A stretch of 64,000 bases of DNA from Streptomyces dengpaensis (GTDB lineage Bacteria > Actinomycetota > Actinomycetes > Streptomycetales > Streptomycetaceae): assembly GCF_002946835.1 (NCBI RefSeq), contig NZ_CP026652.1, forward strand, positions 5,704,001 to 5,768,000. Direction: 5' to 3'. A program made the translations under genes and the position numbers. The notes beneath the pieces were generated by a model. The model did not search any database and had not been told where the DNA came from. It worked only from the letters and a program-made list of their open reading frames with translations. Each line of letters opens with the position of its first letter. Position 1 is the stretch's first letter. Shown in pieces: positions 28,010-59,671 of the stretch.

Positions 28010-28114
28010 CAGCCCGTCCGGCTTTGAGGACGAGCGCGAAGCGCGACAAGCGGGGGGTCTGGGGGCGGCAGCCCCCAGTGATCGGGACGGGTAGGGGCGG
28101 AGGGGGCGAAAAAA
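28010..28114 (+). repeat. Interspersed structured element, copy A
   Basis: Begins CAGCCCGTCCGG and ends GGGACGGGTAGGGGCGGAGG, then GGGCGAAAAAA. The 5' CCCGTCC and 3' GGGACGGG are complementary, and GCGCGAAGCGC forms an internal hairpin. It lies between the permease and bioY. Related copies are at 34437, 38099, 49930, 59485 and 59592. Confidence 0.85.
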
Positions 28115-28364
28115 CTTTGGTGGATCCCCACAGTCACCGGCCACCCGCCCCCGTGGCCAACACGACCCCGCCTCAGTGACCGGCATCACCCCGACTCAGG
28201 TGTACATGCCATCGTTTGTAAGGAGCCCACCAACCCCCCGATCCCCCCTTTGTCGACCGCTGACGGTGATCGGTCGTGTACGCCTGGGATAGCGTCACGG
28301 TGTCCCAATCTGCCTTCCCCCAAGCTCACAAAGGAGCAGGGGGTATCCCATCGCCGGAGTCCCC
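28115..28364 (+). other. Upstream region of bioY
   Basis: No gene is visible in these 250 bp. They include an AT-richer patch around 28200-28225 and should carry the bioY promoter; a TAGCGT 12 bases before TGTCCC (near 28290) is a possible -10. I see no riboswitch-like fold. Confidence 0.4.
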
Positions 28365-28946
28365 ATGAGCACCGCTGCCGCCACCACCTCCCGCCCCGGG
28401 GAGGTCCTCGCCGACCTGCTCCCCGCCTCCCGCGTCCGGGACGCCGCCCTCGTGCTCGGGGGCGCCGCCCTCATCGGCCTCGCCGCCCAGATCGCGGTGC
28501 CGGTGCCGGGCTCCCCGGTGCCGGTGACCGGCCAGACCTTCGCGGCGCTCCTCGTCGGCACGGCGCTCGGCGCGGGCCGCGGCTTCCTGTCGCTCGCGGT
28601 GTACGCGCTGGTCGGCCTGGCCGGCGTCCCGTGGTTCGCCGGGGGCGCCTCCGGCGTCAGCGTGTCCTTCGGCTACATCCTCGGCATGCTCCTCGCCTCC
28701 ACCGTCGTGGGCGCCCTCGCCCGCCGCGGTGCCGACCGCTCCATGCCGCGGATGGCGGGCACGATGCTGATCGGCGAGGCGATCATCTACGCGATCGGCG
28801 TCCCGTACCTGGCCATGGCCGCCGACATGCCGGCGAGCGCGGCCATCGCGGCGGGCCTCACCCCGTTCCTGATCGGCGACGCCCTCAAGGCGGCCCTGGC
28901 GATGGGCGTCCTGCCCGCGGCGTGGAAGCTCGTCAACAAGAAGTGA
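28365..28946 (+). CDS. bioY: Biotin transporter BioY (ECF S component)
   Basis: A 193-residue membrane protein with about six helices. Family features include AAQIAVPVPGSPVPVTGQTF (the conserved biotin-pocket loop after helix 1), the GFLSLAVYALVGLAGVPWF segment, and a GYILGMLLAS helix. It binds and imports biotin, alone or with the EcfAA'T energising module, which is not adjacent. The ATG at 28365 follows a short leader with AGTCCCC. A bidirectional terminator follows. Confidence 0.93.
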   Translation: MSTAAATTSRPGEVLADLLPASRVRDAALVLGGAALIGLAAQIAVPVPGSPVPVTGQTFAALLVGTALGAGRGFLSLAVYALVGLAGVPWFAGGASGVSVSFGYILGMLLASTVVGALARRGADRSMPRMAGTMLIGEAIIYAIGVPYLAMAADMPASAAIAAGLTPFLIGDALKAALAMGVLPAAWKLVNKK

Positions 28947-29001
28947 CCTCGAGCTGAGAAGTGACCTCTCAGTCCCCAGGTTGCAGTTCCTGCGGAAGAG
29001 A

Positions 29002-29045
29002 AAGGGTGGGCCGGGATGCCGCGTTCGGCATCCCGGCCCGCCCTT
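29002..29045. terminator. Bidirectional terminator, 19-bp stem
   Basis: 29002-29020 pairs with 29027-29045 with one G-T wobble and a 6-base loop, between convergent bioY (28946) and the surface-protein gene (29066). Confidence 0.92.
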
Positions 29046-29065
29046 CCCGTATGGCCGAGTGGCCG

Positions 29066-29794
29066 CTAGGACTGCTGCCCCCGCTGCCGCGGACGCCAGT
29101 GGGCCCACCACAGACCCGCCGCCCCCGCGGAGATCAGCGCCGCGCCCGCCACACCGAGCGGCAGGACGTCGCTCCCCGCGCCGGTCCTGGGCAGCTCGTC
29201 ACCGCCGGGTGCCACCGGCTGGTTGTCGGTGCCGAGCAGAAGCGGGGTGGCCGGGGCGTTCGGCGACGGGTTCGTCGTACCGAACGGCACCGGGCCCTGC
29301 TGCCAGTACGTCTTCTTCCCGTCGCTCGTCTGCACCGGCAGACAGATCTTGCCGGTCTTTCCCAGATCGAACGTCGCGTCGACGGCGTACGACTTCGACT
29401 TGCCCGCCGCGAGATTGCCGACGGCACAACTGAAACCACTGTTCGAGCCTTCGGGCAGATCCTTTTCGGCGAGAGCGGAGCAGCCCTGAACGCTCTTGAC
29501 CGTCAGGCCGTCGAATCCGACCACCAAAAGCCTGATGTCGCCGCTGTCCTTGGTGCCTTCGTTCTTTACCGTGGCGGTTATCGCGGTCTTCTGTGAACTG
29601 TTGTCGACCGAGATCTTCTCGGGCAGCAGCGTGGTCAGCTTTACGCCCGCCGGTGCCTCGTCAATTACCTTTCCCCCCTTGCTGCTCCCCGGCCCCTGGT
29701 CGTCCGCGACGGCGGTGAAGGAAAGGATCAACACGGCCGAGAAAGATGCCGTGAGCAGCGATCCCGCGATGGTCGTCGTGTGACGAGAACTCAT
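29066..29794 (-). CDS. Cell-wall-anchored surface protein with LPXTG sortase signal
   Basis: A 242-residue protein. The N-terminal signal peptide (TTTIAGSLLTASFSAVLILS) is followed by a Ser/Lys/Gly-rich spacer and a beta-sandwich-like domain (about residues 45-160, with two cysteines, CSALAEK and FSCAVG). The C-terminus has ELPRTG, a hydrophobic helix (VLPLGVAGAALISAGAAGLW) and the basic tail RPRQR: a complete class-type LPXTG sorting signal. It should be covalently linked to peptidoglycan by a sortase not present here. The ATG read from 29794 has AAGGGGGA upstream. It is divergent from the Ser/Thr kinase with a short shared promoter region. Confidence 0.85.
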   Translation of the reverse strand: MSSRHTTTIAGSLLTASFSAVLILSFTAVADDQGPGSSKGGKVIDEAPAGVKLTTLLPEKISVDNSSQKTAITATVKNEGTKDSGDIRLLVVGFDGLTVKSVQGCSALAEKDLPEGSNSGFSCAVGNLAAGKSKSYAVDATFDLGKTGKICLPVQTSDGKKTYWQQGPVPFGTTNPSPNAPATPLLLGTDNQPVAPGGDELPRTGAGSDVLPLGVAGAALISAGAAGLWWAHWRPRQRGQQS

Positions 29795-29932
29795 GTTCGT
29801 CCCCCTTGGCTGCGCCTGAATTCGCAGTACTTGAAGAGGTACCACAAGATTTCTCCGCACTATGCTGGTACGACCTGAAGTGTGACCATTGTGTTTCTGT
29901 TGTGCCGACAGGGTGTTGCGTGTGTTGAGGGG

Positions 29933-31984
29933 GTGCGGGGATTGTCTGCGCATGTACGGGGCGGTGTTCCGGGATTATTGGTGACGGGGCGTTATCGGCT
30001 GGTAGAGAGTATCGGGCAGGGAGGAATGGGGCGGGTGTGGCGGGCCGCCGACGAAATGCTCGACCGGCAGGTCGCGGTCAAGGAAATGCGCATCGACGGA
30101 CTCGACCCCGAAGACTCGCGTACGCGCCGCGAGCGAACCCTGCGCGAAGCCAGGGCCACGGCCCGGATCGACCACCCCAACGTCGTCCGCATCTACGACG
30201 TCGTTGACGAGGGTGAGCGGCTGTGGATCGTCATGGAACTTGTCGCCGGACGTTCCCTCGAACAGATGGTGGTGGAGGACGGACCCATCGGCCCGCGCGA
30301 GGCGGCCCGCATCGGGCTCGAACTGGTCGCGGCGCTGCGCCAGGTGCACGCCGGGGGAGTGCTGCACCGCGACATCAAACCGGGCAACGTCCTGGTCGAG
30401 CGGCGCGGCAACCGCGTCGTCCTCACCGACTTCGGCATCGCCGCGTTGCAGGACGCGGAGGCGCTCACCATGGCCGGGATGCTGGTCGGCTCCCCCGACT
30501 ACATGGCGCCCGAACGCGTCTCCGGCCGCCCGCAGGGCCCGCCCTCCGACGTGTGGTCCCTGGGCGCCACCCTCTGCGCGGCCCTCGGCGGCCGCTCTCC
30601 CTTCTCCCGCGCCACAACCTTGGCGACCCTGCACGCGGTTCTGTACGAGGAGCCGGAACTCCCGTCCACGGCGGGTGAGTTGCGGGACATTCTGGCAGCC
30701 TTGCTGGAGAAGGAACCGGAGGCGAGGCCTGGTCTGGAGGAGCTTGAGGGGACGCTGGGGGAGATCGCGTTTCCGGCTGCCGGGCCGCAGCCGGAGCTTG
30801 GGCCGGGATCGGGGTCCATTTCGTCGGCCCAGGAGGAGCCGGCCTCTGCTGCCCCTGTAGCCCCCGAGGTGCCTGAGGCCTCTGATGCCTTTGTGACTCC
30901 AGAGCTGCTTGCGACCCCCGAGGTACCTGCGGCCCCCAAGGCCACTGTGACCCCCGAGGCGCCTGATGCGCATCAAGCCCCTGAGGCACACCAGGAGTTG
31001 CCCACCCCTGCACTCCTGGACGCCGACCTGATACGTGCCATACGACAGCCCTCGCAGGCCCCACAGGCCCCGCAAGATCTCCCTGAAGCCGTCCCGCCCT
31101 CAGAGGAACCGCGGCCCGAACGAGCACCCAAGGCCGTATCCGAGCCCGAGCACGCACCCAAGGCCGTACCCGAGACGATCCCCACCCCCAACGCCTCCAC
31201 CGAAGTCCCCTCCGAACTGCGCGCGGAGGCCGGCTCGGAGATCCCCTCGGCCGGTACCCCCGGCGCGACGACAGAGGTCGCCCGGCGGCCGACGGCCCCC
31301 GCCCCGATCCCCGTGATGCCCCCGGGCGAACTCCCCGGCCCCGCCGTGCCGTCCGCCCCGCGACGAAGCAGGCGCCGTACGGGTCTGGCCACCGCGGGCG
31401 GTGTGGTCGCGGCGGGACTCGTCGCCTGGATCGTCATCGCCGCGACGAGCGGTTCGCCCGACGGCAAGACCGGGTCGTCCGGGTCATCCGTGCCGACCGC
31501 CTCGGCCGGCACGAAGGGCAGCCCCTCGCCCACCGTCGAGGGCACCTCACGTCCGCCCAGCCCGCCCCCGGGAGCGCACCGGGAGGCTGGAGGGTACGCG
31601 TGGGTGACGCCCAAAGGCTGGCGCCGCGACCTGAAGACGGGCTCCGAGGTGCACTACACCTCACCCGACGGAAAACAGGAACTCGCGGCCAAGTCCTCCC
31701 TCGCCAAGGGTGACCTGATGCAGACCTGGCAGACCTCGGAACGGAACGCCCGGCAGGGCCGGGACTACCAGAAGATCCGGCTGGAGAACACGACGTTCCA
31801 GGGCCGGCCCGCGGTCGTCTGGGAGTACACCTTCACGCTCAAAGGCGTGCACTACCACGCCCAGCTGCTCGGCTTCGACGTCGACGGCAAGTCGTACCAG
31901 ATCAACACCTGGTACGAGCCGGACATCGAGAGCCAGGCGCTCAAGGTCTACGAACAGGTCAGGAGGAGCTTCACCGTGCTGTGA
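29933..31984 (+). CDS. Membrane Ser/Thr protein kinase (Hanks type)
   Basis: A protein of about 683 residues. The kinase domain has the glycine loop IGQGGMGRVW, the lysine in VAVKEM, the catalytic loop LHRDIKPGN and the DFG motif in LTDFGIAAL, so it should be active. It is followed by a low-complexity Pro/Ala/Glu spacer of about 200 residues with many degenerate PEVPE- and APEA-like units, one transmembrane helix (LATAGGVVAAGLVAWIVIAA) and an extracytoplasmic domain of about 150 residues (WVTPKGWRRDL to the end) unlike PASTA repeats. Start candidates are GTG 29882, GTG 29933 and TTG 29942; GAGGGG sits next to the latter two. It is divergent from the sortase-type protein. Confidence 0.9.
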   Translation: MRGLSAHVRGGVPGLLVTGRYRLVESIGQGGMGRVWRAADEMLDRQVAVKEMRIDGLDPEDSRTRRERTLREARATARIDHPNVVRIYDVVDEGERLWIVMELVAGRSLEQMVVEDGPIGPREAARIGLELVAALRQVHAGGVLHRDIKPGNVLVERRGNRVVLTDFGIAALQDAEALTMAGMLVGSPDYMAPERVSGRPQGPPSDVWSLGATLCAALGGRSPFSRATTLATLHAVLYEEPELPSTAGELRDILAALLEKEPEARPGLEELEGTLGEIAFPAAGPQPELGPGSGSISSAQEEPASAAPVAPEVPEASDAFVTPELLATPEVPAAPKATVTPEAPDAHQAPEAHQELPTPALLDADLIRAIRQPSQAPQAPQDLPEAVPPSEEPRPERAPKAVSEPEHAPKAVPETIPTPNASTEVPSELRAEAGSEIPSAGTPGATTEVARRPTAPAPIPVMPPGELPGPAVPSAPRRSRRRTGLATAGGVVAAGLVAWIVIAATSGSPDGKTGSSGSSVPTASAGTKGSPSPTVEGTSRPPSPPPGAHREAGGYAWVTPKGWRRDLKTGSEVHYTSPDGKQELAAKSSLAKGDLMQTWQTSERNARQGRDYQKIRLENTTFQGRPAVVWEYTFTLKGVHYHAQLLGFDVDGKSYQINTWYEPDIESQALKVYEQVRRSFTVL

Positions 31985-31995
31985 GCGGAGCCCCC

Positions 31996-32075
31996 GCCGG
32001 ACATGGACCCGGCCGGACGCACGCCGGACGTAGTCCATGCCGGACATACGGACGTGGACCATGCCGGACATACGG
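31996..32075. repeat. GCCGGAC tandem cluster after the kinase stop
   Basis: GCCGGAC recurs at 31996, 32012, 32023, 32039 and 32063. The last full unit (32039-32062) is 24 bp with a GACGTGGACCAT end. The array starts 12 bp after the kinase stop and runs into the terminator stem. Confidence 0.75.
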
Positions 32076-32111
32076 AGGGGGCTCGCGGCGTTAGCCACGA
32101 GCCCCCTCCGT
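32072..32111. terminator. Bidirectional hairpin, 14-bp stem
   Basis: 32072-32085 pairs with 32098-32111, with further CGGC/GCCA-type pairing in the loop. It lies between the convergent kinase and second permease (end 32171). Confidence 0.88.
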
Positions 32112-32170
32112 CACGTCACGACGTGTCACGCCATGCCGCAGCCGACTCAGTGCAGTCGGCTTCAGCCGGC

Positions 32171-33904: not shown

Positions 33905-33910
33905 CGAACC

Positions 33911-34399
33911 ATGCGCGTGTATCTCGGTTCCGACCATGCAGGCTTCGAGCTCAAGAACCACCTCGTCGAGTGGCTCAGGGCCGCGGGCCACGAGCCCGTC
34001 GACTGCGGGCCCCACATCTACGACGCCCAGGACGACTACCCGCCCTTCTGCCTGCGCGCCGCGAAGCGCACGGCGGCCGACCCCGGGTCCTTCGGCATCG
34101 TGATCGGCGGCTCGGGCAACGGTGAGCAGATCGCCGCGAACAAGGTGGCCGGTGTTCGTGCCGTCCTCGCATGGAGCGAGGAGACGGCGACCCTCGGCCG
34201 TGAGCACAACAACGCCAACGTGGTCGCGGTCGGTTCCCGCATGCACACGCAGGAGGAGGCGACGAAGTTCGTCGAGACCTTCCTCAACACCCCCTTCTCC
34301 GGTGACGAGCGCCACATCCGCCGCATCGGCATGCTCACGACGTACGAGACCACGGGCGAGCTCCCCCCGGTCCCGGCCCACCACCCGCAGCAGTCGTAG
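33911..34399 (+). CDS. rpiB: Ribose-5-phosphate isomerase B
   Basis: A 162-residue enzyme of the RpiB/LacA fold. MRVYLGSDHAGFELK is the phosphate-binding start, and the active-site loop reads GGSGNGEQIAANKV. It has a serine where E. coli RpiB has cysteine and a glutamate as likely base, the actinobacterial variant known from Mycobacterium. REHNNANV and the terminal RHIRRI motif are also present. It interconverts ribose-5-phosphate and ribulose-5-phosphate in the pentose phosphate pathway. The start lacks a ribosome binding site and is probably leaderless. Confidence 0.93.
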   Translation: MRVYLGSDHAGFELKNHLVEWLRAAGHEPVDCGPHIYDAQDDYPPFCLRAAKRTAADPGSFGIVIGGSGNGEQIAANKVAGVRAVLAWSEETATLGREHNNANVVAVGSRMHTQEEATKFVETFLNTPFSGDERHIRRIGMLTTYETTGELPPVPAHHPQQS

Positions 34400-34436: not shown

Positions 34437-34539
34437 CAGCCCGTCCGGCGTTTGAGGACGAGCGCGAAGCGCGATACGAGGGGTCTCGGGGCCGGAGCCC
34501 CCCCAGATTCGGGACGGGCAGGGGCGGAGGGGGCGAAGA
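34437..34539 (+). repeat. Interspersed structured element, copy B
   Basis: The cleanest copy: CAGCCCGTCCGGCGTTTGAG head, GCGCGAAGCGC hairpin, a GGGGTCTCGGGG/GGAGCCCC hairpin, GGGACGGGC complementary to the head, then a G-rich tail ending GGCGAAGAA. It lies between rpiB and the DNA glycosylase gene, in the sense orientation. Confidence 0.9.
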
Positions 34540-34579: not shown

Positions 34580-35389
34580 GTGCCCGAGGGGCACACGATC
34601 CACCGGCTCGCCGAGGACTACCTCGCGAGCTTCGGGGGCGGGAAGACCCGCGTGACCAGCCCGCAGGGCAAGTTCACCGATGCCGCCACCCTCCTGGACG
34701 GCTCCGAGCTCACCACCGCCGAAGCCCACGGCAAGCACCTCTTCCTCGGCTTCCGCGCTGCGGACTGGATCCACATCCATCTCGGCCTGTTCGGCAAGGT
34801 CAACTTCGGCGACGCCCCCGCCCCGCCCCCCACGGACACCGTCCGCCTCCGCCTCGCGAACACCACGTCGTACGTCGACCTGCGCGGCCCCACCACCTGC
34901 GCCCTGATCACGGACGCCGAGAAGAAGGCGGTACACGACCGCCTCGGCCCGGACCCCCTCCGCCCGGACGCCGACCCGTCGGCCGCGTACCGCCGGATCT
35001 CCCGCAGCCGTACGACGATCGCCGCGCTCCTCATGGACCAGAAGATCATCGCGGGCGTGGGCAACGTCTACCGCGCGGAGGTCCTCTTCCGGCACGGCAT
35101 CGACCCGTACCGCACGGGCAGGGACCTCACCCCCGCCGAGTGGGACGCGATCTGGGACGATCTGGTCGCGCTGATGCGCGAGGGAGTCCGCAACAACCGC
35201 ATCGACACCGTCCGCCCGGAACACACGCCGGAGGCCATGGCCCGCCCGCCGCGCGTCGACGACCACGGCGGCGAGGTCTACGTGTACCGCAGGGCCAACC
35301 TGCCCTGCCACATCTGTGGCGGCGAGATCCGCACCGCCGATCTCGCCGCCCGCAACCTCTTCTGGTGCCCGGCCTGCCAGCGCCGCTAG
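34580..35389 (+). CDS. nei: Fpg/Nei-family DNA glycosylase/AP lyase (Nei type)
   Basis: A 269-residue enzyme. Mature MPEGHT gives the catalytic Pro2-Glu3 typical of endonuclease VIII rather than Fpg (PELPE). The H2TH region contains QKIIAGVGNVYRAEVLF. The C-terminal zinc finger reads CHICGGEIRT then FWCPACQRR, with the DNA-contacting arginine. It excises oxidised pyrimidines and cleaves the abasic site. The GTG start at 34580 follows a perfect GGAGGA. The structured element B lies in its upstream region. Confidence 0.93.
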   Translation: MPEGHTIHRLAEDYLASFGGGKTRVTSPQGKFTDAATLLDGSELTTAEAHGKHLFLGFRAADWIHIHLGLFGKVNFGDAPAPPPTDTVRLRLANTTSYVDLRGPTTCALITDAEKKAVHDRLGPDPLRPDADPSAAYRRISRSRTTIAALLMDQKIIAGVGNVYRAEVLFRHGIDPYRTGRDLTPAEWDAIWDDLVALMREGVRNNRIDTVRPEHTPEAMARPPRVDDHGGEVYVYRRANLPCHICGGEIRTADLAARNLFWCPACQRR

Positions 35390-36828: not shown

Positions 36829-38055
36829 ATGGCAGCAGGACGAGAGCGGCGCGCGGAAGCCGAGACGTTCACGGCCCGGTTGAAGAAGCAGGTACACCGG
36901 GCCCGCACAGGCGTGCGCAGATCCGCCGTCGACTACTTCCGCGGGGACGGTTCCGACTGGATCGCGCTGGCCGGTCTGCTGCTGACCATTCCGCTGATCG
37001 CCGCCACGACGCTGGTGAACTCGGTGTGGTGCTCACCCGCGGCCCTGGTCCTTCCCATCGTGGCCGGCGGCCTCCTGCTCCGTCCGGCCAGCCTGCTCGG
37101 TCTGTACGCGGCCGCGGCCACCGCGCTCATAGTGGAGTCCGTGAAGCTGGGCCCGTACACGGAGGGCCCGTCCCGGGTGACGCCGGGCGTGGTGCTGGTG
37201 GTCGCCGCGTGCGGCTTCTTCGGCCTCCTCATCGCGCAGTTCCGCAGCCGGGTGGGCGTGCCCTGGCGACGGGGCGGCACCATGCTCTTCGACCTCCGCG
37301 AACGGATCCGGGTGCAGAGCAAGCTGCCGAAGCTGCCGCTGGGCTGGCACCGGGAAATGGCGCTGCGACCGGCGGGCGGGCAGTCGTTCTCCGGTGACTT
37401 CGTGGTGGCCGCCCGTACGAACGGCGGCCGCACGCTGGAGGTCGTCCTCACGGACGTGTCGGGCAAGGGCATGGACGCGGGTTCGCGCGCGCTGCTGTTG
37501 TCGGGAGCCTTCGGAGGCCTCCTCGGCTCACTCCCGCCGCACGCCTTCCTGCCCGCCGCGAACGGATACCTCCTCCGCCAGGACTGGGACGAGGGCTTCG
37601 CGACCTCGATCCACCTGGTCCTCGACCTGGACTCGGGCGACTACGAACTCTTCTCGGCCGGCCACCCTCCGGGCCTCCAGCTCAGCGCGGGCAGCGGCCG
37701 CTGGGAGGAGAAGGCGGCGGAAGGGCCGTTGCTGGGTGTGTACGACGGCGCTCAGTTCGACCCCGCGAAGGGCTCGCTCCGTCCCGGAGATGTGTTGATG
37801 CTGTTCACGGACGGACTGGTGGAGACGGCCGACCGCGACATCGTCGAGGGCATCGACCGCCTGACGGGCGAAGCCGACCGCTACGTCGCCGGCGGCTTCC
37901 ACGGAGCCGCCTGGCACCTCATCGAAGCCGTGGCCAAGGACGTCAACGACGACCGGGCACTCCTGCTGATCTGCCGAGAGGGCCCCAACGTCCCCCTGCA
38001 TTTCAGCCCGTCCGGCGCCGGAGATCATTCAGCCCGTCCGGCGTTTGAGCACTAG
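36829..38055 (+). CDS. Membrane PP2C/SpoIIE-type Ser/Thr phosphatase
   Basis: A 408-residue protein. The N-terminal 135 residues contain about three hydrophobic helices, and from about residue 165 there is a SpoIIE/PP2C domain. FSGDFVVAARTNG and VVLTDVSGKGMDAGSRA carry the metal-binding aspartates, GHPPGLQL is the central motif, and LMLFTDGLVE and DRALLLI complete it. It is likely a phosphatase in an anti-sigma-factor antagonist or kinase network. TAGGGT 9 bases before the ATG suggests a very short leader. The last about 17 residues (FSPSGAGDHSARPAFEH) are encoded by the heads of the interspersed element. Confidence 0.9.
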   Translation: MAAGRERRAEAETFTARLKKQVHRARTGVRRSAVDYFRGDGSDWIALAGLLLTIPLIAATTLVNSVWCSPAALVLPIVAGGLLLRPASLLGLYAAAATALIVESVKLGPYTEGPSRVTPGVVLVVAACGFFGLLIAQFRSRVGVPWRRGGTMLFDLRERIRVQSKLPKLPLGWHREMALRPAGGQSFSGDFVVAARTNGGRTLEVVLTDVSGKGMDAGSRALLLSGAFGGLLGSLPPHAFLPAANGYLLRQDWDEGFATSIHLVLDLDSGDYELFSAGHPPGLQLSAGSGRWEEKAAEGPLLGVYDGAQFDPAKGSLRPGDVLMLFTDGLVETADRDIVEGIDRLTGEADRYVAGGFHGAAWHLIEAVAKDVNDDRALLLICREGPNVPLHFSPSGAGDHSARPAFEH

Positions 38056-38200
38056 CGCGAACCGCGATGTTGTTCAGCCCGTCCGGCGCTTGGTTGTTCA
38101 GCCCGTCCGGCGTATGAGGACGAGCGCGTCAGCGCGATACGGGGGTCTGGGTGCGGAGCCCCCAGGTACGGGACGGGCAGGGGCGGCGGGGGCGAAAAAC
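38001..38200 (+). repeat. Interspersed structured element, copy C with three extra heads
   Basis: The head TTCAGCCCGTCCGGCG occurs four times, with the CAGCCC at 38004, 38030, 38075 and 38099. Only the last is followed by the complete element, ending GGGACGGGC and GGCGAAAAA near 38200. The first two heads are inside the PP2C gene and supply its C-terminal codons and stop. Confidence 0.9.
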
Positions 38201-38245: not shown

Positions 38246-38704
38246 GTGACGCAGACTCTTCTGACCCTGGCCGAAGTCGAAGCCCTCGCCCGCGAGGCGC
38301 ACGCAGCCCAGACCGACAAGGCGGGCCGCCCGTACGCCGAGCACCTTGAGGCCGTAGCGGAAGGGGTCCGAGACCGCGGCGGAGACGACGAACAGATGGC
38401 GGCCGCCTGGCTCCACGACGCGCTCGAGGACGCCGCACTCTCCGAGGACTGGCTGCGCGAGGCCGCGCTGACCCGCCGCACGAAGGACATCGTGCTCGCG
38501 CTCACCAAACAGGAGGGGGAGCCGCCGGAGTCGTACGCGCGACGCATCCGTACGACCCCGGGCGCCCTCCTGGTGAAGGTGTCCGACCTGGCGCACAACG
38601 CCGACCCGGCCCGGCTCGCGGTCCTCGACGAGCACACCAGGGCCCGGCTGACGAAGAAGTACGCGACGATGCGCGCGCTGCTGGACCTCCCGCCGGGCCC
38701 CTGA
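38246..38704 (+). CDS. HD-domain hydrolase (MESH1/RelA-hydrolase-like)
   Basis: A 152-residue protein. HAAQTDKAGRPYAEHLEAVA and AAAWLHDALED supply the His and His-Asp metal ligands of the small HD hydrolases related to the (p)ppGpp hydrolase domain; VKVSDLAHNADP provides the downstream Asp/Asn motif. It may hydrolyse (p)ppGpp or another nucleotide; no synthetase domain is present. The GTG at 38246 lies directly after GGGGAG, so a slightly later start is possible. Copy C of the structured element sits just upstream. Confidence 0.8.
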   Translation: MTQTLLTLAEVEALAREAHAAQTDKAGRPYAEHLEAVAEGVRDRGGDDEQMAAAWLHDALEDAALSEDWLREAALTRRTKDIVLALTKQEGEPPESYARRIRTTPGALLVKVSDLAHNADPARLAVLDEHTRARLTKKYATMRALLDLPPGP

Positions 38705-38757
38705 GCCGGAACGCCCGGTCCTTGAGCCCGAACGCCCGGCCCCTGAGCCCGAACACG
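38701..38757. repeat. Tandem array, 20-21 bp x 2.5, over the HD-gene stop codon
   Basis: CTGAGCC(G/C)GAACGCCCGG units start at 38701, 38721 and about 38742. The TGA stop of the HD gene (38702-38704) is the second to fourth base of the first unit, and TGAG recurs in each unit. Confidence 0.85.
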
Positions 38758-38761
38758 AGAA

Positions 38762-38791
38762 TGCGGGCCCGGGACGGCTCCCGGACCCGCA
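38762..38791. terminator. Hairpin between convergent genes
   Basis: TGCGGGCCCGGGA (38762-38774) pairs with TCCCGGACCCGCA (38779-38791) with one mismatch and a 4-base loop, between the HD gene and the acyltransferase. Confidence 0.82.
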
Positions 38792-41007: not shown

Positions 41008-41081
41008 TGGAGCGGGCGACGGGAATCGAACCCGCGTAGCTAGTTTGGAAGACTAGGGCTCTACCATTGAGCTACGCCCGC
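41008..41081 (-). tRNA. tRNA-Gly (anticodon TCC)
   Basis: Read on the minus strand, 74 bases including an encoded CCA. The acceptor arm GCGGGCG pairs with CGCCCGC. The D arm is GCTCAATGGTAGAGC, the anticodon stem-loop is CTAGT-CTTCCAA-ACTAG with anticodon TCC, and the T arm contains GGGTTCGATTCCC. Confidence 0.97.
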
Positions 41082-41233: not shown

Positions 41234-41310
41234 CGGGGTGTGGCGCAGCTTGGTAGCGCGTCCGCTTTGGGAGCGGAAGGCCGTGGGTTCAAATCCCGCC
41301 ACCCCGACCA
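41234..41310 (+). tRNA. tRNA-Pro (anticodon TGG)
   Basis: 77 bases with an encoded CCA. The acceptor arm CGGGGTG pairs with CACCCCG, the D arm starts GCGCAGCTTGGTAGCGC, the anticodon loop TTTGGGA holds TGG, and the T arm contains GGGTTCAAATCCC. Confidence 0.97.
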
Positions 41311-47215: not shown

Positions 47216-49840
47216 GTGACCGACAACGCTCAGCAGCAGCCGCCAGCATCCACTCCCGAACTGCCGACCCAGTACGCGCCGGCCGACGTAGAGGGGCCGC
47301 TGTACGAGCGCTGGGTAGAGCGGGGCTACTTCGAGGCCGACGCGAAGAGCGGCAAGCCTCCGTACACCGTCGTCATCCCGCCGCCGAACGTCACGGGCAG
47401 CCTGCACCTCGGGCATGCCTTCGAGCACACGCTCATCGACGCCCTCACGCGCCGCAAGCGCATGCAGGGCTACGAGACGCTGTGGCAGCCCGGCATGGAC
47501 CACGCCGGTATCGCCACGCAGAACGTCGTCGAGCGGGAGCTCGGCAAGGAGGGCAAGTCCCGCCACGACCTCGGCCGCGAGGCGTTCGTCGAGCGCGTCT
47601 GGCAGTGGAAGGGCGAGTCCGGCGGGCAGATCTCCGGGCAGATGCGGCGCCTGGGCGACGGCGTCGCCTGGTCCCGCGAGCGCTTCACCATGGACGAGGG
47701 CCTGTCCCAGGCCGTCCAGACCATCTTCAAGCGCCTCTACGACGACGAGCTGATCTACCGCGCCGAGCGCATCATCAACTGGTGCCCGCGCTGTCTGACC
47801 GCGATCTCGGACATCGAGGTCGAGTACCAGGACGACGACGGCGAGCTCGTCTCCATGAAGTACGGCGACGGGGACGACACCATCGTCGTCGCCACCACCC
47901 GCGCCGAGACGATGCTCGGTGACACGGCCGTCGCCGTTCACCCCGAGGACGAGCGCTACAAGCACCTGGTCGGTAAGTTCATCAAGCTGCCGCTGACCGA
48001 CCGCTCCATCCCGGTCGTCGCCGACGAGCACGTCGACCCCGAGTTCGGCACGGGTGCCGTCAAGGTCACCCCGGCCCACGACCCGAACGACTTCGAGATC
48101 GGGCAGCGCCACAACCTGCCGTCCATCACCGTCATGGACGAGCACGCCGTCATCACGGCCCACGGCCCCTTCCAGGGCCTGGACCGCCTCGAGGCCCGCT
48201 CGGCCATCGTCGCCGCGCTGCGCGCCGAGGGCCGGATCGTCGCCGAGAAGCGGCCGTACGTCCACTCGGTCGGCCACTGCTCGCGCTGCAAGACCACCAT
48301 CGAGCCGCGCCTGTCCATGCAGTGGTGGGTCAAGGTCGGCCCGCTGGCGAAGGCCGCCGGTGACGCCGTACGCGACGGCAAGGTCAAGATCCATCCGCAG
48401 GAGATGGAGAAGCGGTACTTCGACTGGGTCGACAACCTCCACGACTGGTGCATCTCGCGGCAGTTGTGGTGGGGTCACCGGATCCCGGTCTGGTACGGCC
48501 CGGACGGCGAGGTCGTCTGCGTCGGCCCGGACGAGGAGCCGCCGGCCGGCGAGGGCTGGCACCAGGACACCGACGTCCTCGACACCTGGTTCTCCTCCGG
48601 CCTGTGGCCGTTCTCCACGCTCGGCTGGCCCGAGCAGACCGAGAGCCTCGCGAAGTTCTACCCGAACTCCGTCCTGGTCACCGGCTACGACATCCTCTTC
48701 TTCTGGGTCGCCCGGATGATGATGTTCGGCCTGTACGCGATGGACGGCACCCCGCCGTTCCACACCATCGCCCTGCACGGCATGGTCCGCGACCAGTTCG
48801 GCAAGAAGATGTCGAAGTCCTTCGGCAACGCGGTCAATCCGCTGGACTGGATGGACAAGTACGGCAGCGACGCGCTGCGGTTCACGCTCGTCCGTGGCGC
48901 CAACCCCGGTGTCGACGTCCCGATCGGCGAGGACTGGGTCCAGGGGTCCCGCAACTTCGCCAACAAGATCTGGAACGCCACGCGCTTCGCGCTGATGAAC
49001 GGCGCGACGGTCGGGGGCCCGCTGCCGGACGCCTCGCGCATGTCGGCGACGGACCGCTGGATCCTCTCCCGCCTCAACTCGGTCGTCGCCGAAGTCGACG
49101 CGTACTACGAGGACTTCCAGTTCGCGAAGCTCTCCGACACGCTCTTCCACTTCGCGTGGGACGAGGTCTTCGACTGGTATGTCGAGCTGTCCAAGACCAC
49201 GTTCCAGGCGGGCGGCGAGGCGGCCGAGGTCTCCCAGCGTGTCCTCGGCGAGGTTCTCGACGTCACGCTGAGGCTGCTGCACCCGGTTGTCCCGTTCGTC
49301 ACGGAGACGCTGTGGACCACCCTCACGGGTGGTGAGTCGGTCGTCATCGCCGACTGGCCGGCCGACAGCGGGTTCCGTGACGGCGCCGCCGAGCGCGAGA
49401 TCGAGACGCTGCAGCAGGTCATCACGGAGGTCCGTCGCTTCCGTGCCGACCAGGGCCTGCAGCCCGGTCAGCGTGTCCCGGCCCGGCTGACCCTCGACGG
49501 GACGGCGCTCGCCCCGCACGAGGCGGCCATCCGCCAGCTGCTGCGGCTCCAGCCGGAGGGCGAGTCCTTCACGGCGACGGCCACCCTGCCGGTCGCGGGT
49601 GCCACGGTGGCGCTCGATCTCTCCGGCACGATCGACGTCGCCGCGGAGCGGAAGCGGCTCGCGAAGGACCTTGCCGCCGCCGAGAAGGAGAAGGCCCAGG
49701 CGAACGGCAAGCTCGGCAACGAGGCGTTCCTCGCCAAGGCTCCCGACCATGTCGTGGAGAAGATCCGGACGCGGCTCGCCAAGGCGGACGAGGACATCGC
49801 CCGTATCAAGGCGCAGTTGGACCGGCTGCCGGAGGCGTAG
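47216..49840 (+). CDS. valS: Valyl-tRNA synthetase
   Basis: An 874-residue class I synthetase. The HIGH motif appears as [13 protein letters not shown] (about 63), the editing domain contains [18 protein letters not shown] is in [12 protein letters not shown] (about 530), and the C-terminal coiled-coil arm ([15 protein letters not shown]) is complete. It charges tRNA-Val in the cytoplasm. The GTG at 47216 appears leaderless. A hairpin and copy D of the interspersed element separate it from folC. No T-box leader is seen. Confidence 0.98.
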
Positions 49841-49929: not shown

Positions 49930-50034
49930 GTTTTTTCGCCCCCTCCGCTCCTTCCCGTCCCGTCCTGGGCCCGCGGCGGAGCCGCTGATGGATGCAGCGC
50001 CGCAGACCCCGCTCCTCAAACGCCGGAGGGGCTG
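49930..50034 (-). repeat. Interspersed structured element, copy D (reverse orientation)
   Basis: Read on the minus strand it starts CAGCCCCTCCGGCGTTTGAG and ends in the GGAGGGGGCGAAAAAA tail. It carries the variant head CCCCTCC, shared with copy F. It lies between valS and folC. Confidence 0.85.
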
Positions 50035-50088: not shown

Positions 50089-51636
50089 GTGAGTGAGCTC
50101 CCCCCGCACGACAGTGACGACCGTGGCGAGTCCGGCGAGCCGGAACCCCGCGACCCGCTCGGCCTCTTCGACGAGATCGTCGCGGAAGAGACCGACCGCG
50201 ACCCCGACCTCGCGGTGATCGAGGCCGGCAGCCGCACCCTGCGCACGCAGGGCAGCGCCCAGCCGGAGCAGGACGTCCCCGCCCGCCCCACCGACCCCGA
50301 GGTCGACAAGGCGCTGCGCGAGGTCGAGTCGGAGCTCGCGACCCGCTGGGGCGAGACCAAGCTGGAGCCGTCCGTCGGCCGCATCGCCGCGCTGGTGGAC
50401 ATCCTCGGTGAGCCGCAGCGCTCGTACCCCTCGATCCACATCACGGGCACGAACGGCAAGACCTCCACCGCCCGCATGATCGAGTCCCTGCTCGGCGCCT
50501 TCGATCTGCGCACGGGCCGGTACACGAGCCCCCACGTGCAGTCGGTCACCGAGCGCATCAGCCTCGACGGCGCGCCCATCTCCGCCGAGCGGTTCATCGA
50601 GACGTACAACGACATCAAGCCGTACATCGAGATGGTCGACGGGCAGCAGGAGTACCGGCTCTCCTTCTTCGAGGTACTGACCGGCATGGCGTTCGCCGCC
50701 TTCGCCGACGCCCCCGTCGACGTCGCCGTCGTCGAGGTCGGCATGGGCGGCAGCTGGGACGCCACCAACGTCATCGACGGGGACGTCGCCGTCATCACGC
50801 CCATCGATCTCGACCACACCGACCGGCTCGGCGAGACGCCCGGCGAGATCGCCACGGAGAAGGCGGGCATCGTCAAGCAGGACGCCACCGTCATCCTGGC
50901 GCAGCAGCCGGTGGACGCCGCCCAGGTGATCCTGAAGAAGGCCGTCGAGGCCGACGCGACCGTGGCGCGCGAAGGGCTCGAGTTCGGTGTCGTCGCGCGG
51001 CAGGTCGCCGTCGGCGGGCAGCTGCTGACCCTGCGCGGGCTCGGCGGTGAGTACGAGGACATCTTCCTGCCGCTGCACGGCGCCTACCAGGCGCACAACG
51101 CCGCCGTGGCGCTCGCCGCGGTCGAGGCGTTCTTCGGCGTCGGTGCCGACCGCGCCCAGCGGCTCGACATCGGCACCGTGCGGAAGGGGTTCGCGTCGGT
51201 GTCGGCGCCGGGGCGTCTGGAGGTCGTACGCCGTTCGCCCACCGTCGTGGTCGACGCCGCGCACAATCCGGCGGGTGCCCGCGCCACCGCCGAGGCCATC
51301 AGCGAGGTCTTCGACTTCAGCCGGCTGATCGGCGTCGTCGGCGTGAGCGGCGACAAGAACGTACGGGGGCTGCTGGAAGCCTTCGAGCCGATCTTCGCCG
51401 AGGTCGTCATCACGCAGAACTCCAGCCATCGCGCCATGGACGCGGACGAGCTGGCCGGGATCGCCGTCGAGGTCTTCGGCGAGGAGCGGGTCCAGGTCGA
51501 GCCGCGGCTCGACGACGCGCTGGAGGCCGCGATCACGCTCGCCGAGGAGGAGGGCGAGTACGCGGGCGGTGGCGTGCTGGTCACCGGTTCCGTCATCACC
51601 GTCGGCGAGTCCCGACTGCTCCTGGGGAGGGGCTGA
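50089..51636 (+). CDS. folC: Folylpolyglutamate synthase / dihydrofolate synthase
   Basis: A 515-residue Mur-ligase-family enzyme that adds glutamate to (dihydro)folates. The ATP-binding loop is HITGTNGKTSTARMIE (about 119), followed by SPHVQSVTERI (folate side), VVEVGMGGSWDATNV, and the C-terminal VVDAAHNPAGARATAEAI. The N-terminal about 85 residues are acidic, Glu/Pro/Asp rich and absent from shorter homologues, as usual in actinobacteria. The GTG at 50089 appears leaderless. The DUF4233 gene follows after 4 bases, so they form an operon. Confidence 0.96.
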   Translation: MSELPPHDSDDRGESGEPEPRDPLGLFDEIVAEETDRDPDLAVIEAGSRTLRTQGSAQPEQDVPARPTDPEVDKALREVESELATRWGETKLEPSVGRIAALVDILGEPQRSYPSIHITGTNGKTSTARMIESLLGAFDLRTGRYTSPHVQSVTERISLDGAPISAERFIETYNDIKPYIEMVDGQQEYRLSFFEVLTGMAFAAFADAPVDVAVVEVGMGGSWDATNVIDGDVAVITPIDLDHTDRLGETPGEIATEKAGIVKQDATVILAQQPVDAAQVILKKAVEADATVAREGLEFGVVARQVAVGGQLLTLRGLGGEYEDIFLPLHGAYQAHNAAVALAAVEAFFGVGADRAQRLDIGTVRKGFASVSAPGRLEVVRRSPTVVVDAAHNPAGARATAEAISEVFDFSRLIGVVGVSGDKNVRGLLEAFEPIFAEVVITQNSSHRAMDADELAGIAVEVFGEERVQVEPRLDDALEAAITLAEEEGEYAGGGVLVTGSVITVGESRLLLGRG

Positions 51637-53959: not shown

Positions 53960-53995
53960 TCCGCCGTACGAGATGACCCCTTCTCGTACGGCGGA
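53960..53995 (+). terminator. Terminator of mreB
   Basis: A perfect 14-bp stem (53960-53973 with 53982-53995) with an 8-base loop, 15 bp after the stop. mreC must then have its own promoter or depend on read-through. Confidence 0.88.
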
Positions 53996-54125
53996 TCGTT
54001 GGCATGGAGGCCTAAACTCCCATGTAGCTCCTGCGACATAGAGTCATAAGAGCCCCCACAACAACCTCATCACCTGACAGCCTCATAACACCCGCGGGCA
54101 TCTTTTTGCTCGGGGTGCGCCCCTG

Positions 54126-55100: not shown

Positions 55101-55115
55101 GAGGAGCTGAATCCC

Positions 55116-55787: not shown

Positions 55788-55789
55788 GG

Positions 55790-55826
55790 ACAGTGGTGAG
55801 AGCAGTCGTGCGGGCAGTCGTGCCGA
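55790..55826. repeat. Tandem array, 12 bp x 3, after mreD
   Basis: ACAGTGGTGAGA, GCAGTCGTGCGG and GCAGTCGTGCCG follow each other a few bases after the mreD stop. Confidence 0.65.
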
Positions 55827-55942
55827 GTTCACCTCAAGCTTCGCTCGTGTCACGGAAGTTGACCGACAACGGTGTCTCCACGCACAAGTTCGCCGGGTAC
55901 TCGTATGTCTCGTGCACACACTGAGAGGGGGAGGCAGCCGCA

Positions 55943-58234
55943 GTGACCAACATCCCCGAGACCGGTCGGACTCCACGGGTCCAGATCCGGCTCATCGTCA
56001 TCCAGATCCTCGTCCTCTCCCTCTTCGGCACCCTCGGCGGACGCCTCTGGTACCTCCAGATCCGCAACGGCGACGAATACGCCAAGGAAGCCTCCGGCAA
56101 CCACGTCCAGCAGGTCGTGCAGCCCGCCGTGCGCGGCTCGATCCTGGACGCGCGCGGCGTGCCGATCGCCGACAACGAGACCCGGCTCGTCGTCTCCGCC
56201 TCCCGCACCGATCTGCTGAAGATGAAGGACGACGGCAAGGCCGTCCTCACCAAACTCGCCGGTGTCCCGGGCGTAAAGCCCCAGGACGTCATGGAGAAGG
56301 TCCGCCTCTGCGACGCCAAGACGCCGCAGCCGTGCTGGAACGGCTCGCCGTACCAGCCGATCCCGATCACCGATGAGGCCACCCCCAAGCAGGCCCTGCA
56401 GATCCGCGAGCGCTCCGAGGACTTCCCCGGCATCACCGCCGAGCCGATGGCCGTGCGCCGCTACGCCGCCCCCGGCCAGGCCAACACCGCCCAGGTCCTC
56501 GGCTATCTCTCGCCCGTCACCGACGAAGAGATCACCCAGGCCAAGGACACCGACTCGCCCTACCTCCGCTCCGACCAGGTCGGCCGCAGCGGCCTCGAGC
56601 GCCAGTACGACAAGGAGCTGCGCGGCAAGGCGGGCGTCACCCGCTACGAGGTCGACAACCTCGGCCGCGTCATCGGCCAGGCCAAGAGTGACGAGGCCGA
56701 GGCCGGCGCCAACCTCGTCACCAGCATCGACGCCCGCGTGCAGCGGGTGGCCGAGTACGAGCTGAACGAGGCCATGAAGGAGGCCCGCAAGCAGTTCGAC
56801 GACAACACCAACGAAAACTACAAGGCGGACTCCGGAGCCGTCGTGGTGATGGAGGCCAAGACCGGCCGCGTCGTCGCCATGGCGTCCAACCCGTCGTACG
56901 ACCCGAACGCCTGGGTCGGCGGCATCTCCGGCAAGGACTACGCCCGGCTCACCGGCAAGAAGTCCAACTACCCGCTGCTCAACCGCGCCACACAGGGTCA
57001 GTCGGCACCCGGGTCCACCTTCAAGGTCATCTCCACCGCCGCCGCCGTCGAGGCGGGCTACGACTTCAACGGCCGCTACCCCTGCGGCAGCTCGTACTCG
57101 ATCGGCGGCCAGGTCTTCAAGAACTTCGAGTCGCAGAGCCACGGCCCGATCAGCCTAGGCCGCGCCCTCGAGGTCTCCTGCGACACCGTCTTCTACGGCC
57201 TCGCCCACAACGAGTGGAAGAAGGACGGGGGCATCAAGCCCAAGAAGGACGCCAAGGACTGGTTCTACAAGGCCGCCCACCAGTTCGGCCTCGGCAAGGA
57301 AACCGGCATCGACCTCCCCAACGAGGTCACGGGCCGCGTCCCCGACCGCGCGTGGAAGCAGGCCTACTGGAAGGCCAACAAGGACGCCTGGTGCAAGAGC
57401 GGCAAGAAGGACGGCTCGTACGTCGAGAAGATCGCGTACGAGAACTGCCTCGAAGGCAACCTGATGCGCGCCGGTGACTCCGTCAACTACTCCATCGGCC
57501 AGGGCGACACCCTCGTCACCCCGATTCAGATGGCCACGGTCTACGCGGCCATCGCCAACGGCGGCACCCTGTACGACCCGGCCGTCGGCAAGGCCGTCAT
57601 CAGCGCCGACGGCAAGAGCGTGCGGGAGATCAAGCCCAAGACACACGGCAAGCTGCCGATCAACAAGAAGACGCTCGCCGAGATGAACGAGGCCCTCGCC
57701 GGCGTCGCCACCCGCGGTACGGCCGCCTGGCGCTTCGGCGGCTGGCCGCAGGACGAGATCCCGATGCACGCCAAGACCGGTACCGCCGAGGTCTACGGCA
57801 AGCAGACCACCTCGTGGTTCACCACGTACACCAAGGACTACACGGTCGTCATGACCATCTCCCAGGGTGGTACGGGCTCCGGCGCCTCCGGCCCCGCCGT
57901 GCGCAACATCTACAACGCGCTGTACGGCGTCTCCGAGGACGGCGAGATCGACAAGTCGAAGGCCCTGCTGCCCACCCCGCAGAAGAGCCTGCCGAAGATC
58001 CAGACCGACGGCTCGATCGACGCACAGGCGATCTCCGAGTACCCGGCCAAGAAGAAGGCCGACGAGGACGAGCGGACCGGCGAGGACGAGCAGGCCGACG
58101 AGACGGACACCTCCGACCCGGCCGACCAGCAGCTGCCCGCGGGCACTTCGCCCTCGCCCACCGAGAGCAACCGCGACACCCGCAGGCGCACGGCCCGCCC
58201 GAAGAAGCGGCGGGGGAAGAGGATCCCGACATGA
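55943..58234 (+). CDS. mrdA: Penicillin-binding protein 2 (class B transpeptidase)
   Basis: A 763-residue membrane protein. N-terminal anchor (IRLIVIQILVLSLFGTLGG), PBP dimerisation domain with RGSILDARGVPIADN, then the transpeptidase domain: SxxK in SAPGSTFKVIS (about 357) and KTG in HAKTGTAEVYG (about 610). The C-terminus is a long charged Glu/Asp/Thr tail ending in a basic cluster. It crosslinks peptidoglycan together with the RodA polymerase. The GTG at 55943 has GGGGGAGG upstream. Its stop overlaps the ATG of a 13-codon frame (ATGA), which in turn overlaps the rodA start. Confidence 0.96.
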   Translation: MTNIPETGRTPRVQIRLIVIQILVLSLFGTLGGRLWYLQIRNGDEYAKEASGNHVQQVVQPAVRGSILDARGVPIADNETRLVVSASRTDLLKMKDDGKAVLTKLAGVPGVKPQDVMEKVRLCDAKTPQPCWNGSPYQPIPITDEATPKQALQIRERSEDFPGITAEPMAVRRYAAPGQANTAQVLGYLSPVTDEEITQAKDTDSPYLRSDQVGRSGLERQYDKELRGKAGVTRYEVDNLGRVIGQAKSDEAEAGANLVTSIDARVQRVAEYELNEAMKEARKQFDDNTNENYKADSGAVVVMEAKTGRVVAMASNPSYDPNAWVGGISGKDYARLTGKKSNYPLLNRATQGQSAPGSTFKVISTAAAVEAGYDFNGRYPCGSSYSIGGQVFKNFESQSHGPISLGRALEVSCDTVFYGLAHNEWKKDGGIKPKKDAKDWFYKAAHQFGLGKETGIDLPNEVTGRVPDRAWKQAYWKANKDAWCKSGKKDGSYVEKIAYENCLEGNLMRAGDSVNYSIGQGDTLVTPIQMATVYAAIANGGTLYDPAVGKAVISADGKSVREIKPKTHGKLPINKKTLAEMNEALAGVATRGTAAWRFGGWPQDEIPMHAKTGTAEVYGKQTTSWFTTYTKDYTVVMTISQGGTGSGASGPAVRNIYNALYGVSEDGEIDKSKALLPTPQKSLPKIQTDGSIDAQAISEYPAKKKADEDERTGEDEQADETDTSDPADQQLPAGTSPSPTESNRDTRRRTARPKKRRGKRIPT

Positions 58235-58272
58235 CGACAGCGGCGACGAAGGTGCTGAGGATCCTGACATGA
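58231..58272 (+). CDS. 13-codon linking ORF between mrdA and rodA
   Basis: ATG at 58231 overlaps the mrdA stop (ATGA), and its own TGA at 58270-58272 overlaps the rodA ATG (ATGA again). It would encode MTTAATKVLRILT. GAGGATC(C/T)(C/T)GACATGAC occurs at both junctions, so the piece looks like a tandem duplication of the original stop-start overlap. The first copy of GAGGATC lies 12 bases ahead of the mini-ORF start. Translation is plausible as a coupling relay but unproven. Confidence 0.45.
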   Translation: MTTAATKVLRILT

Positions 58273-59468
58273 CCGGAGCGAACAACTTCTCCGTCTCCGG
58301 GTACGGACCCGAGCGCGCGCGCTGGACACGACTGTTCGCCCGCGACTCGCTGGCCCGCCGCCTCGACTGGCCGATACTCCTGTCGGCCATCGCGCTCTCG
58401 CTGATCGGTACGGCCCTCGTCTACTCGGCGACCCGCAACCGCACCGAGATCAACCAGGGCGACCCGTACTACTTCCTCGTCCGCCACCTCATGAACACCG
58501 GCATCGGCTTCGCCCTGATGGTCGGCACGGTCTGGCTCGGCCACCGCACCCTGCGCACGGCCGTGCCGATCCTGTACGGCATCTCGGTCCTGCTGATCCT
58601 CATGGTGCTGACCCCGCTGGGCGCGACGGTCAACGGCGCGCACGCGTGGATCGTCCTGGGCGGCGGTTTCTCTCTCCAGCCCTCCGAGTTCGTGAAGATC
58701 ACGATCATCCTGGGCATGGCGATGCTGCTCGCGGCGAGGGTGGACGCGGGGGACAAGCCGTACCCGGACCACCGCACGGTGGTGCAGGCCCTGGGCCTCG
58801 CCACCGTCCCGATCCTGATCGTCCTGCTCATGCCCGACCTCGGCTCGGTCATGGTCATGGTGATCATCATCCTCGGCGTGCTGCTCGCCTCCGGCGCGTC
58901 CAACCGCTGGGTGTTCGGCCTGCTCAGCGCAGGTGCGGTCGGAGCGGTGCTGGTGTGGCGGCTCGGGGTGCTCGACGAGTACCAGATCAACCGCTTCGCG
59001 GCCTTCGCCAACCCCGACCTCGACCCGGCCGGCGTCGGCTACAACACCAACCAGGCCCGGATCGCCATCGGCTCCGGCGGCCTCTTCGGCACCGGCCTCG
59101 GCCAGGGCTCCCAGACCACGGGCCAGTTCGTCCCCGAGCAGCAGACGGACTTCGTCTTCACCGTCGCCGGCGAGGAACTGGGCTTCGTGGGCGCCGGCCT
59201 GATCCTGGTCCTGCTGGGCGTGGTGCTGTGGCGCGCCTGCCGTATCGCCCGCGAGACCACCGAGTTGTACGGCACGATCGTCGCGGCCGGCATCATCGCC
59301 TGGTTCGCCTTCCAGTCCTTCGAGAACATCGGCATGACGCTCGGCATCATGCCGGTGGCGGGTCTGCCGCTGCCCTTCGTCTCATACGGCGGCTCGTCGA
59401 TGTTCGCGGTGTGGGTCGCGGTGGGGTTGCTGCAGTCGATCAGGGTGCAGCGGCCCATGTCGGCGTAG
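58269..59468 (+). CDS. rodA: RodA/FtsW/SEDS-family peptidoglycan polymerase
   Basis: A 399-residue protein with about ten membrane helices. SEDS signatures include LGATVNGAHAWIVLGG, LQPSEFVKI, the PDLGSVMVM motif with the catalytic-type aspartate, and GLPLPFVSYGGSSM at the end. It polymerises lipid II in partnership with the PBP2 encoded upstream; in Streptomyces the homologue at this place is linked to sporulation wall synthesis. The ATG at 58269 is overlapped by the 13-codon linking frame, and GAGGATC is the ribosome binding site. Confidence 0.95.
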   Translation: MTGANNFSVSGYGPERARWTRLFARDSLARRLDWPILLSAIALSLIGTALVYSATRNRTEINQGDPYYFLVRHLMNTGIGFALMVGTVWLGHRTLRTAVPILYGISVLLILMVLTPLGATVNGAHAWIVLGGGFSLQPSEFVKITIILGMAMLLAARVDAGDKPYPDHRTVVQALGLATVPILIVLLMPDLGSVMVMVIIILGVLLASGASNRWVFGLLSAGAVGAVLVWRLGVLDEYQINRFAAFANPDLDPAGVGYNTNQARIAIGSGGLFGTGLGQGSQTTGQFVPEQQTDFVFTVAGEELGFVGAGLILVLLGVVLWRACRIARETTELYGTIVAAGIIAWFAFQSFENIGMTLGIMPVAGLPLPFVSYGGSSMFAVWVAVGLLQSIRVQRPMSA

Positions 59469-59484
59469 GGGGCTGCGGACTGGG

Positions 59485-59587
59485 TTTTCGCCCCCTCCGC
59501 CCCTGCCCGTCCCGTCCTTGGGGGCTGCCTGCCCCCCAACCCCCCTGTCGCGCTGACGCGCTCGTCCTCAAACTCCGGACGGGCTGA
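59485..59587 (-). repeat. Interspersed structured element, copy E (reverse orientation)
   Basis: On the minus strand it has the head CAGCCCGTCCGG, a GCGCGTCAGCGC hairpin, GGGACGGGC and the G-rich tail to GGCGAAAA. It starts 17 bp after rodA. Confidence 0.88.
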
Positions 59588-59591
59588 AAAC

Positions 59592-59671
59592 CAGCCCCTC
59601 CGGCGTTTGAGGAGCGGGGTTCGGGGCGGAGCCCCGGGTACGGGAAGGGCACGGGCGGAGGGGGCGAAAAC
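59592..59671 (+). repeat. Interspersed structured element, copy F, head-to-head with E
   Basis: CAGCCCCTCCGGCGTTTGAG head, shortened middle with GGGGTTCGGGG/GGAGCCCC, GGGAAGGGC and the GGCGGAGGGGGCGAAAA tail. With copy E it forms a large inverted repeat between rodA and the CYTH-CHAD gene. Confidence 0.88.

Follow-up and report, generated by a model that had tools for sequence, protein, structure and literature searches.

A mosaic family of interspersed palindromic repeats, probably REP/BIME-like, in Streptomyces

A 64,000-nucleotide stretch of Streptomyces dengpaensis (contig NZ_CP026652.1, positions 5,704,001 to 5,768,000; the window) carries six copies of a structured element of about 100 bp, at window positions 28010, 34437, 38099 and 59592 on the plus strand and 49935 and 59487 on the minus strand. 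All six lie between genes (called, here and below, by codon usage), as an earlier note made from the window alone had proposed. The genome measures 8.71 Mb, of which the contig holding the window makes up 8.54 Mb. We read the element as a member of a Streptomyces family of interspersed palindromic repeats, built as a mosaic, resembling repetitive extragenic palindromic (REP) sequences and bacterial interspersed mosaic elements (BIMEs) and spread as DNA, a reading to which we assign a probability of about 0.6. The earlier note had offered three possibilities: a REP-like or miniature inverted-repeat transposable element (MITE)-like mobile sequence, a structured RNA, and a processing or terminator module. 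The REP-like part of the first, a palindrome that occurs outside genes in many copies and also in dimers and arrays, is the one that the evidence favors.

Copy number, modules and covariation

The copy number is a direct count. The exact head CAGCCCSTCCGGCGTTTGAGG occurs at 103 places in the S. dengpaensis genome (48 forward and 55 reverse), against 0 matches for the reversed pattern, so copies exceed chance and are spread far outside the window. The earlier note had named beforehand lack of covariation, lack of copy excess and restriction to this region as findings that would tell against it; what we found was covariation (in another place than claimed), a copy excess and copies beyond the region. 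Of 156 head-like sites (at most 4 mismatches) within 606,728 bases fetched from this genome, 132 also have a tail. Leaving out 11 of 130 full copies that have a second head inside gives 119 full non-nested copies, and one more, without two flanking genes, was set aside before the context test. The 28010 copy is absent from these counts (arm counts, distances, and the sets of 119 and 118) owing to the loss of one base in its head loop (GGC-TTTGAGG).

The architecture is likewise observed directly. A core head of 22-25 bases (CAGCCCSTCCGGCGTTTGAGGA) has the stem CGTCC/GGACG in G-type copies (head CCCGTCC) or CTCC/GGAG in C-type copies (head CCCCTCC), with the loop GGCGTTTGA. Interchangeable modules are attached to this head: H2, a short hairpin, and H3, a GC hairpin that reads GGGGGTCTGGGGGCGGCAGCCCCCAG or is longer. 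Some lineages also have a G-rich tail (GGGACGGGTAGGGGCGGAGGGGGCGAAAAA), and in others the head position is taken by another hairpin, of 20 bp, made of GCGCAGTTCCCCGCGCCCCT and its complement. Heads, middle hairpins and tail combine independently from genome to genome. The counts of exact head, tail and alternative hairpin are 103, 130 and 2 in S. dengpaensis, 22, 16 and 130 in genome G001, 99, 0 and 1 in G002, 37, 32 and 48 in G007, 2, 5 and 106 in G014, and 0, 0 and 48 in G016. Among 25 Streptomyces genomes the head was found in 18, the tail in 8 and the alternative hairpin in 16; none of the three was found in any of 16 genomes outside the bacterial family to which Streptomyces belongs, and a sample of 150 genomes of that family had the head in 40, from 4 of 17 genera. 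Six loci of G002 show heads without the G-rich tail, several in tandem or inverted groups, and further head series occur in G436 (spacings of 91 and 73 bp) and G411 (one, of 66 bp).

The G-rich tail is a lineage-specific module. The earlier note's suggestion that it could form a G-quadruplex holds as a predicted pattern in S. dengpaensis, where four G-tracts fit the tail in 62 of 67 aligned copies; the G-tract columns vary in 0-4.5% of copies, three between-tract columns in 46%, 15% and 10%, and the other between-tract columns scarcely at all. As a conserved core of the family the G-quadruplex was rejected: within 128 nt after the head the pattern follows 6 of 15 distinct heads in G018/G019, or 7 of 17 when two heads count twice, and 0 of 8 in G010 (random stretches, 104 of 3000). 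Two further composite forms were seen. In a subset of S. dengpaensis copies (L040, L051, L053 and others) a GC-rich module of about 70 bases, GATGGGGGTCCCCCCGCTCTGGGGGTACC...GAGAGTGGGGGA, replaces the stretch before the tail, and in L006, L008 and L035 a reverse-complement tail (TTCGCCCCCTCCGCCCC) stands directly before the head.

Covariation was judged by counts on alignments. It is present in the local head stem, CGTCC-GGCGTTTGA-GGACG or CTCC-GGCGTTTGA-GGAG, and in H2. At head positions 7-23 we counted G-C in 165 heads, C-G in 53 and G-U in 7, so that 225 of 243 are paired (147.7 expected); T8-A22 is changed to C8-G22 in 4 heads, and at two pairs of H2 both partners are changed in 12 of 67 copies. 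Positions 6-24 gave no pairing excess (134 paired, 132.2 expected). Both states of the head stem are present in S. dengpaensis, G283, G018, G019, G002 and named relatives.

Covariation between head and distal arm, which the earlier note had claimed, was not found. Its rule that CCCGTCC heads keep GGGACGGG and the CCCCTCC head has GGGAAGGG is wrong: the CCCCTCC copy at 49935-50034 retains GGGACGGG, and GGGAAGGG is not complementary to CCCCTCC. Over the 132 S. dengpaensis copies with a tail, C-type heads go with GGGACGGG in 24 of 36 cases, with the truly complementary GGGAGGGG in 1 and with GGGAAGGG in 1, and G-type heads with GGGACGGG in 74 of 96 and GGGAAGGG in 2; on these counts head-tail covariation was rejected as a mark of RNA. 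A head-tail stem is possible in G-type copies, where it is the one chosen by RNAalifold, and in the window the complementarity of head and distal arm stands for the four G-type copies (28010, 34437, 38099 and 59487) but not as a rule for all; for the two C-type copies, folding predictions pair the head with CGGAGGGG at the tail's end instead. Two other supposed constants also gave way. The 38099 copy carries GTATGAGG where every copy was said to keep GTTTGAGG or TTTGAGG, and the internal hairpin is not constant, as C-type copies have no H2 and H3 occurs in several versions. Permissive pattern labels ('A+B') were not used for any of the subfamily counts.

Placement at gene ends

Copies are intergenic and gather at gene ends. 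The 118 full S. dengpaensis copies fall into 65 co-directional, 42 convergent and 11 divergent gaps. With intergenic length in 144 kb of uninterrupted sequence from this genome as the basis, 43, 16 and 59 would be expected (p = 4e-21), and with the number of gaps as the basis 52, 32 and 34 (p = 2e-5). Overlap of more than 20 nt with a called gene was seen in 5 of the 118. In co-directional gaps the median distance is 24 nt to the upstream stop and 92.5 nt to the next start (129 copies, nested ones included), and there is no orientation preference (37 copies oppose the gene direction and 28 follow it; p = 0.32). Strand counts per chromosome region gave no consistent pattern of replication-strand bias. 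Dimers are frequent: among 142 heads (at most 2 mismatches), neighbors less than 300 bp apart form 10 head-to-head, 9 direct and 1 tail-to-tail pairs, and 8 of the 10 head-to-head pairs have starts 5-9 nt apart. Inverted and direct head groups also occur in G002.

If the copies spread as DNA, insertions near gene ends would survive because they do least harm there. Hairpins that are transcribed would probably act as 3'-end barriers, protecting against exonucleases or aiding termination. A possible explanation, to which we give clearly less weight, is that the element is first of all a selected 3'-end module, a two-way terminator or an mRNA-processing or stability element kept for its function and multiplied by recombination between copies. 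The enrichment of convergent and depletion of divergent gaps and the short distance to the upstream stop fit such a module, as does the head-to-head dimer at 59487/59592, in which one copy's head hairpin followed by the other's T-run makes a terminator-like site (59615-59594, minus strand). Related ends are known in the genus: Term-seq of S. clavuligerus and S. griseus gave structured 3' ends without a U-tract (PMC8269248 and PMC8914203, in their accessible portions), and abundant short transcripts at palindromes of S. coelicolor, many in 3' untranslated regions, are interpreted as decay intermediates in the portion seen of PMC4681348. The GC hairpins at transcript ends are a likeness; those of the two Term-seq studies, as far as the accessible portions go, are mapped ends and not a repeat family. 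Single copies, however, are not followed by a U-tract, and in two scanned stretches only the dimer combined hairpin and U-tract inside a copy. The orientation is random, the site between rpiB and mutM is empty in 72 of 116 species or differently filled, and insertion with selection against promoter damage would yield the same placement. The position near stop codons fits the terminator or processing module of the earlier note.

Turnover at orthologous sites and the means of spread

Presence, absence and differing heads at orthologous sites are directly established. Genome G283 has elements in the same orientation at the places of the 28010, 34437, 38099 and 49935 copies, sharing with the first both orientation and right flank. 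The slot of the 59487/59592 dimer is short and headless in G283 and G369. At the 34437 site (between rpiB and the mutM-like gene) G228 and G056 have H3 and tail with a 20-bp hairpin instead of the head; a clean empty site in the comparison of these two was rejected, since one copy differs and the junction is unclean. After removal of 24 of the 140 loci, which were duplicates, lacked a neighboring rpiB or had genes that were cut or masked, the rpiB-mutM site held a forward module in 39 of 116 species, a reverse tail in 5 and none in 72. Of the 39 forward modules, 10 have a symmetrical hairpin, 3 consist of the tail alone and 26 carry a head of G or C type; the orientation is the same for all 26 heads. 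A mutM tree made by a quick method, with 40 of 113 inner branches drawn open, calls for at least 12 changes of occupancy and at least 20 of module type.

Close pairs of species give a nearer view of these changes. Heads and flanks differ between L094 (S. canus) and L238, whose mutM genes are 97.8% identical. L105 (S. pseudovenezuelae) and L240 (mutM 93.5% identical) resemble a full and an empty site: once a 98-nt element is removed, 101-104 of 128 aligned flank positions agree, and the pair shows no duplication. In L246 half of the alternative hairpin is joined to H3 and tail in a deletion-like manner. Copies are gained, lost and reassembled, surely in part by recombination between strains. 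Two repeat series were also seen. The orthologous window of G228 (about 56144-56213, the L264 region) has a series of 23-base units, CAGCCCGTCCGGCGTTTGGCTTT, ahead of a full head, resembling slippage products, and that of G283 has truncated heads (38364-38765) with a period of about 95 bases before the counterpart of the 38099 copy.

We suggest that copies spread and turn over as DNA, that their hairpins in single-stranded DNA would prompt template switching or be acted on by some enzyme, and that recombination between copies or between strains would swap the modules. A bolder version, which we offer tentatively, is a streptomycete REP system without a REP-associated tyrosine transposase (RAYT), in which heads, hairpins and the G-quadruplex-type tail would be separate mobile or recombining modules. 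Each lineage would put them together anew, and they would be exchanged at fixed orthologous slots through a mechanism acting on single-stranded DNA, either a new enzyme or template switching at hairpins, so that the same gene ends would carry a different mosaic in each species.

The movers suggested by the earlier note, a RAYT or other transposase, could not be linked to the family. The Y1 transposase domain (PF01797) was found in 4 of 25 genomes searched and in 3 of 16 Streptomyces (S. dengpaensis, G011 and G012), and it is absent from G002 with its 99 heads, from G007 and from G001. RAYT mobility was rejected on its absence from the head-rich G002; the flanks of the four Y1 genes of S. dengpaensis were not checked for heads. 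These four, of the IS200/IS605 type, lie at 40, 180, 292 and 8250 kb, near the ends of the linear chromosome, and three have identical scores. Neither among 72,556 plasmids nor among 50,697 phages did the 34437 copy have a match at E 1e-5.

MITEs are non-autonomous elements of about 100 bp, intergenic, with partial terminal inverted repeats and a target-site duplication. Size, location and partial inverted repeats at the ends are shared by the present family, and a MITE moved by a DDE-type transposase could account for the imperfect inverted repeats formed by C-type head and tail end (TTTTCAGCCCCTCCGGCG and TTTTCGCCCCCTCCGCCCC, flanked by T-run and A-run) and for the discrete ends of the one full/empty pair (L105/L240). 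We consider it improbable. The flanking target duplications that the earlier note proposed to look for were not found, direct repeats of 3-8 nt being in no excess in 108 copies, and no gene recurs beside the copies, the largest similarity group among the 227 neighboring proteins, to which the search for a partner was confined, having 4 members; these two results weaken the MITE alternative. Heads, moreover, multiply without the G-rich tail, their other end, in G002, G010 and others. Least credible is a small structured RNA acting in trans or cis, which would fit the covariation in head stem and H2 and the closing of G-type copies by a head-tail stem, but against which stand the middle of that stem, mismatched by C-type heads, the stability of the six window copies, not unusual against shuffles (folding z 0.02 to -1.95), their lack of an Rfam match, the random orientation, and a scan of two stretches that gave no sigma-70-like promoter, although such a scan is a weak test for Streptomyces DNA.

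Several points weigh against a REP/BIME-like family spread as DNA. The mobility step is not observed, and no enzyme was found. The head-stem covariation is partly a difference between two subfamilies, with fewer events than sequences. At most sites the compared species share 84-94% identity, which leaves only a few, indistinct full/empty junctions. What looks like module swapping can also come from exchange between strains, the flanks of L094 and L238 also being different, and the single orientation of the 26 heads fits a few insertions followed by losses as well as it fits repeated insertion.

Copies in the window and comparison with known systems

Four of the window copies are G-type. The first (28010-28110, plus) is an exception to the placement trend: its flanking genes, one for an amino-acid permease (26489-27874, minus) and bioY (28365-28946, plus), are divergent. 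The second (34437-34537, plus) has rpiB (33911-34399) on its left and a mutM-like Fpg/Nei gene (34580-35389) on its right. The third (38099-38196, plus) is flanked by genes for a SpoIIE phosphatase (36913-38055) and an HD-domain protein (38246-38704), with two partial heads upstream (38030-38098, plus; starts 38030 and 38075). The fourth (59487-59586, minus) is the left half of the head-to-head dimer and follows a rodA/ftsW-like gene (58269-59468, plus); the right half (59592-59668, plus) is C-type and precedes a CYTH-CHAD gene (59741-61276, plus). The other C-type copy (49935-50034, minus), with a long H3, lies between valS (47216-49840, plus) and a folC-like Mur ligase gene (50089-51636, plus). 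The only Rfam matches in the window are two tRNA genes (41011-41081, minus, and 41234-41307, plus), on opposite strands with about 150 bases between them.

REPINs are RAYT-mobilized REP doublets, inverted pairs at short spacing. The present family has such pairs of palindromes, and differs from REPINs and RAYT-mobilized REPs in having no Y1/RAYT link. Measured against REP/BIME families as described in the accessible portion of PMC3733652, it is alike in being a short palindrome in high copy (at least about 100 per genome), extragenic, mostly downstream of genes, and in forming head-to-head dimers and clusters; the extra modules (H2, H3 and G-rich tail) are a difference. The same portion places the GTAG and CGTC REP superfamilies in 8 phyla, Actinobacteria not being among those it names, and mentions untagged REP-like repeats in M. 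tuberculosis. CGTC families likewise have no dedicated transposase, and the present heads contain CGTC or CCTC; in CGTC REPs, according to that portion, an unpaired end tag precedes a stem of 8-9 bp, whereas here CGTC or CCTC lies inside the stem, CGTC being paired with GGACG in a stem of 4-5 bp in G-type heads. GTAG is absent from the head consensus, and neither tag is therefore present in the sense of those superfamilies.

A search of the open literature by sequence strings and topics gave no description of the family; most subscription papers lie outside it and an earlier description is possible. The strings matched only one unrelated earthworm transcriptome paper, and the accessible portions of PMC1525189, PMC1590033 and PMC3765725 do not describe the family. 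On the present reading the streptomycetes, which produce antibiotics, would have a large family of REP/BIME-like repeats whose module mixing could be traced across orthologous sites in hundreds of genomes. Such a family would give a means to test REP-like spread without a RAYT, and would be relevant to interpreting transcript ends and repeat-driven rearrangement in Streptomyces.

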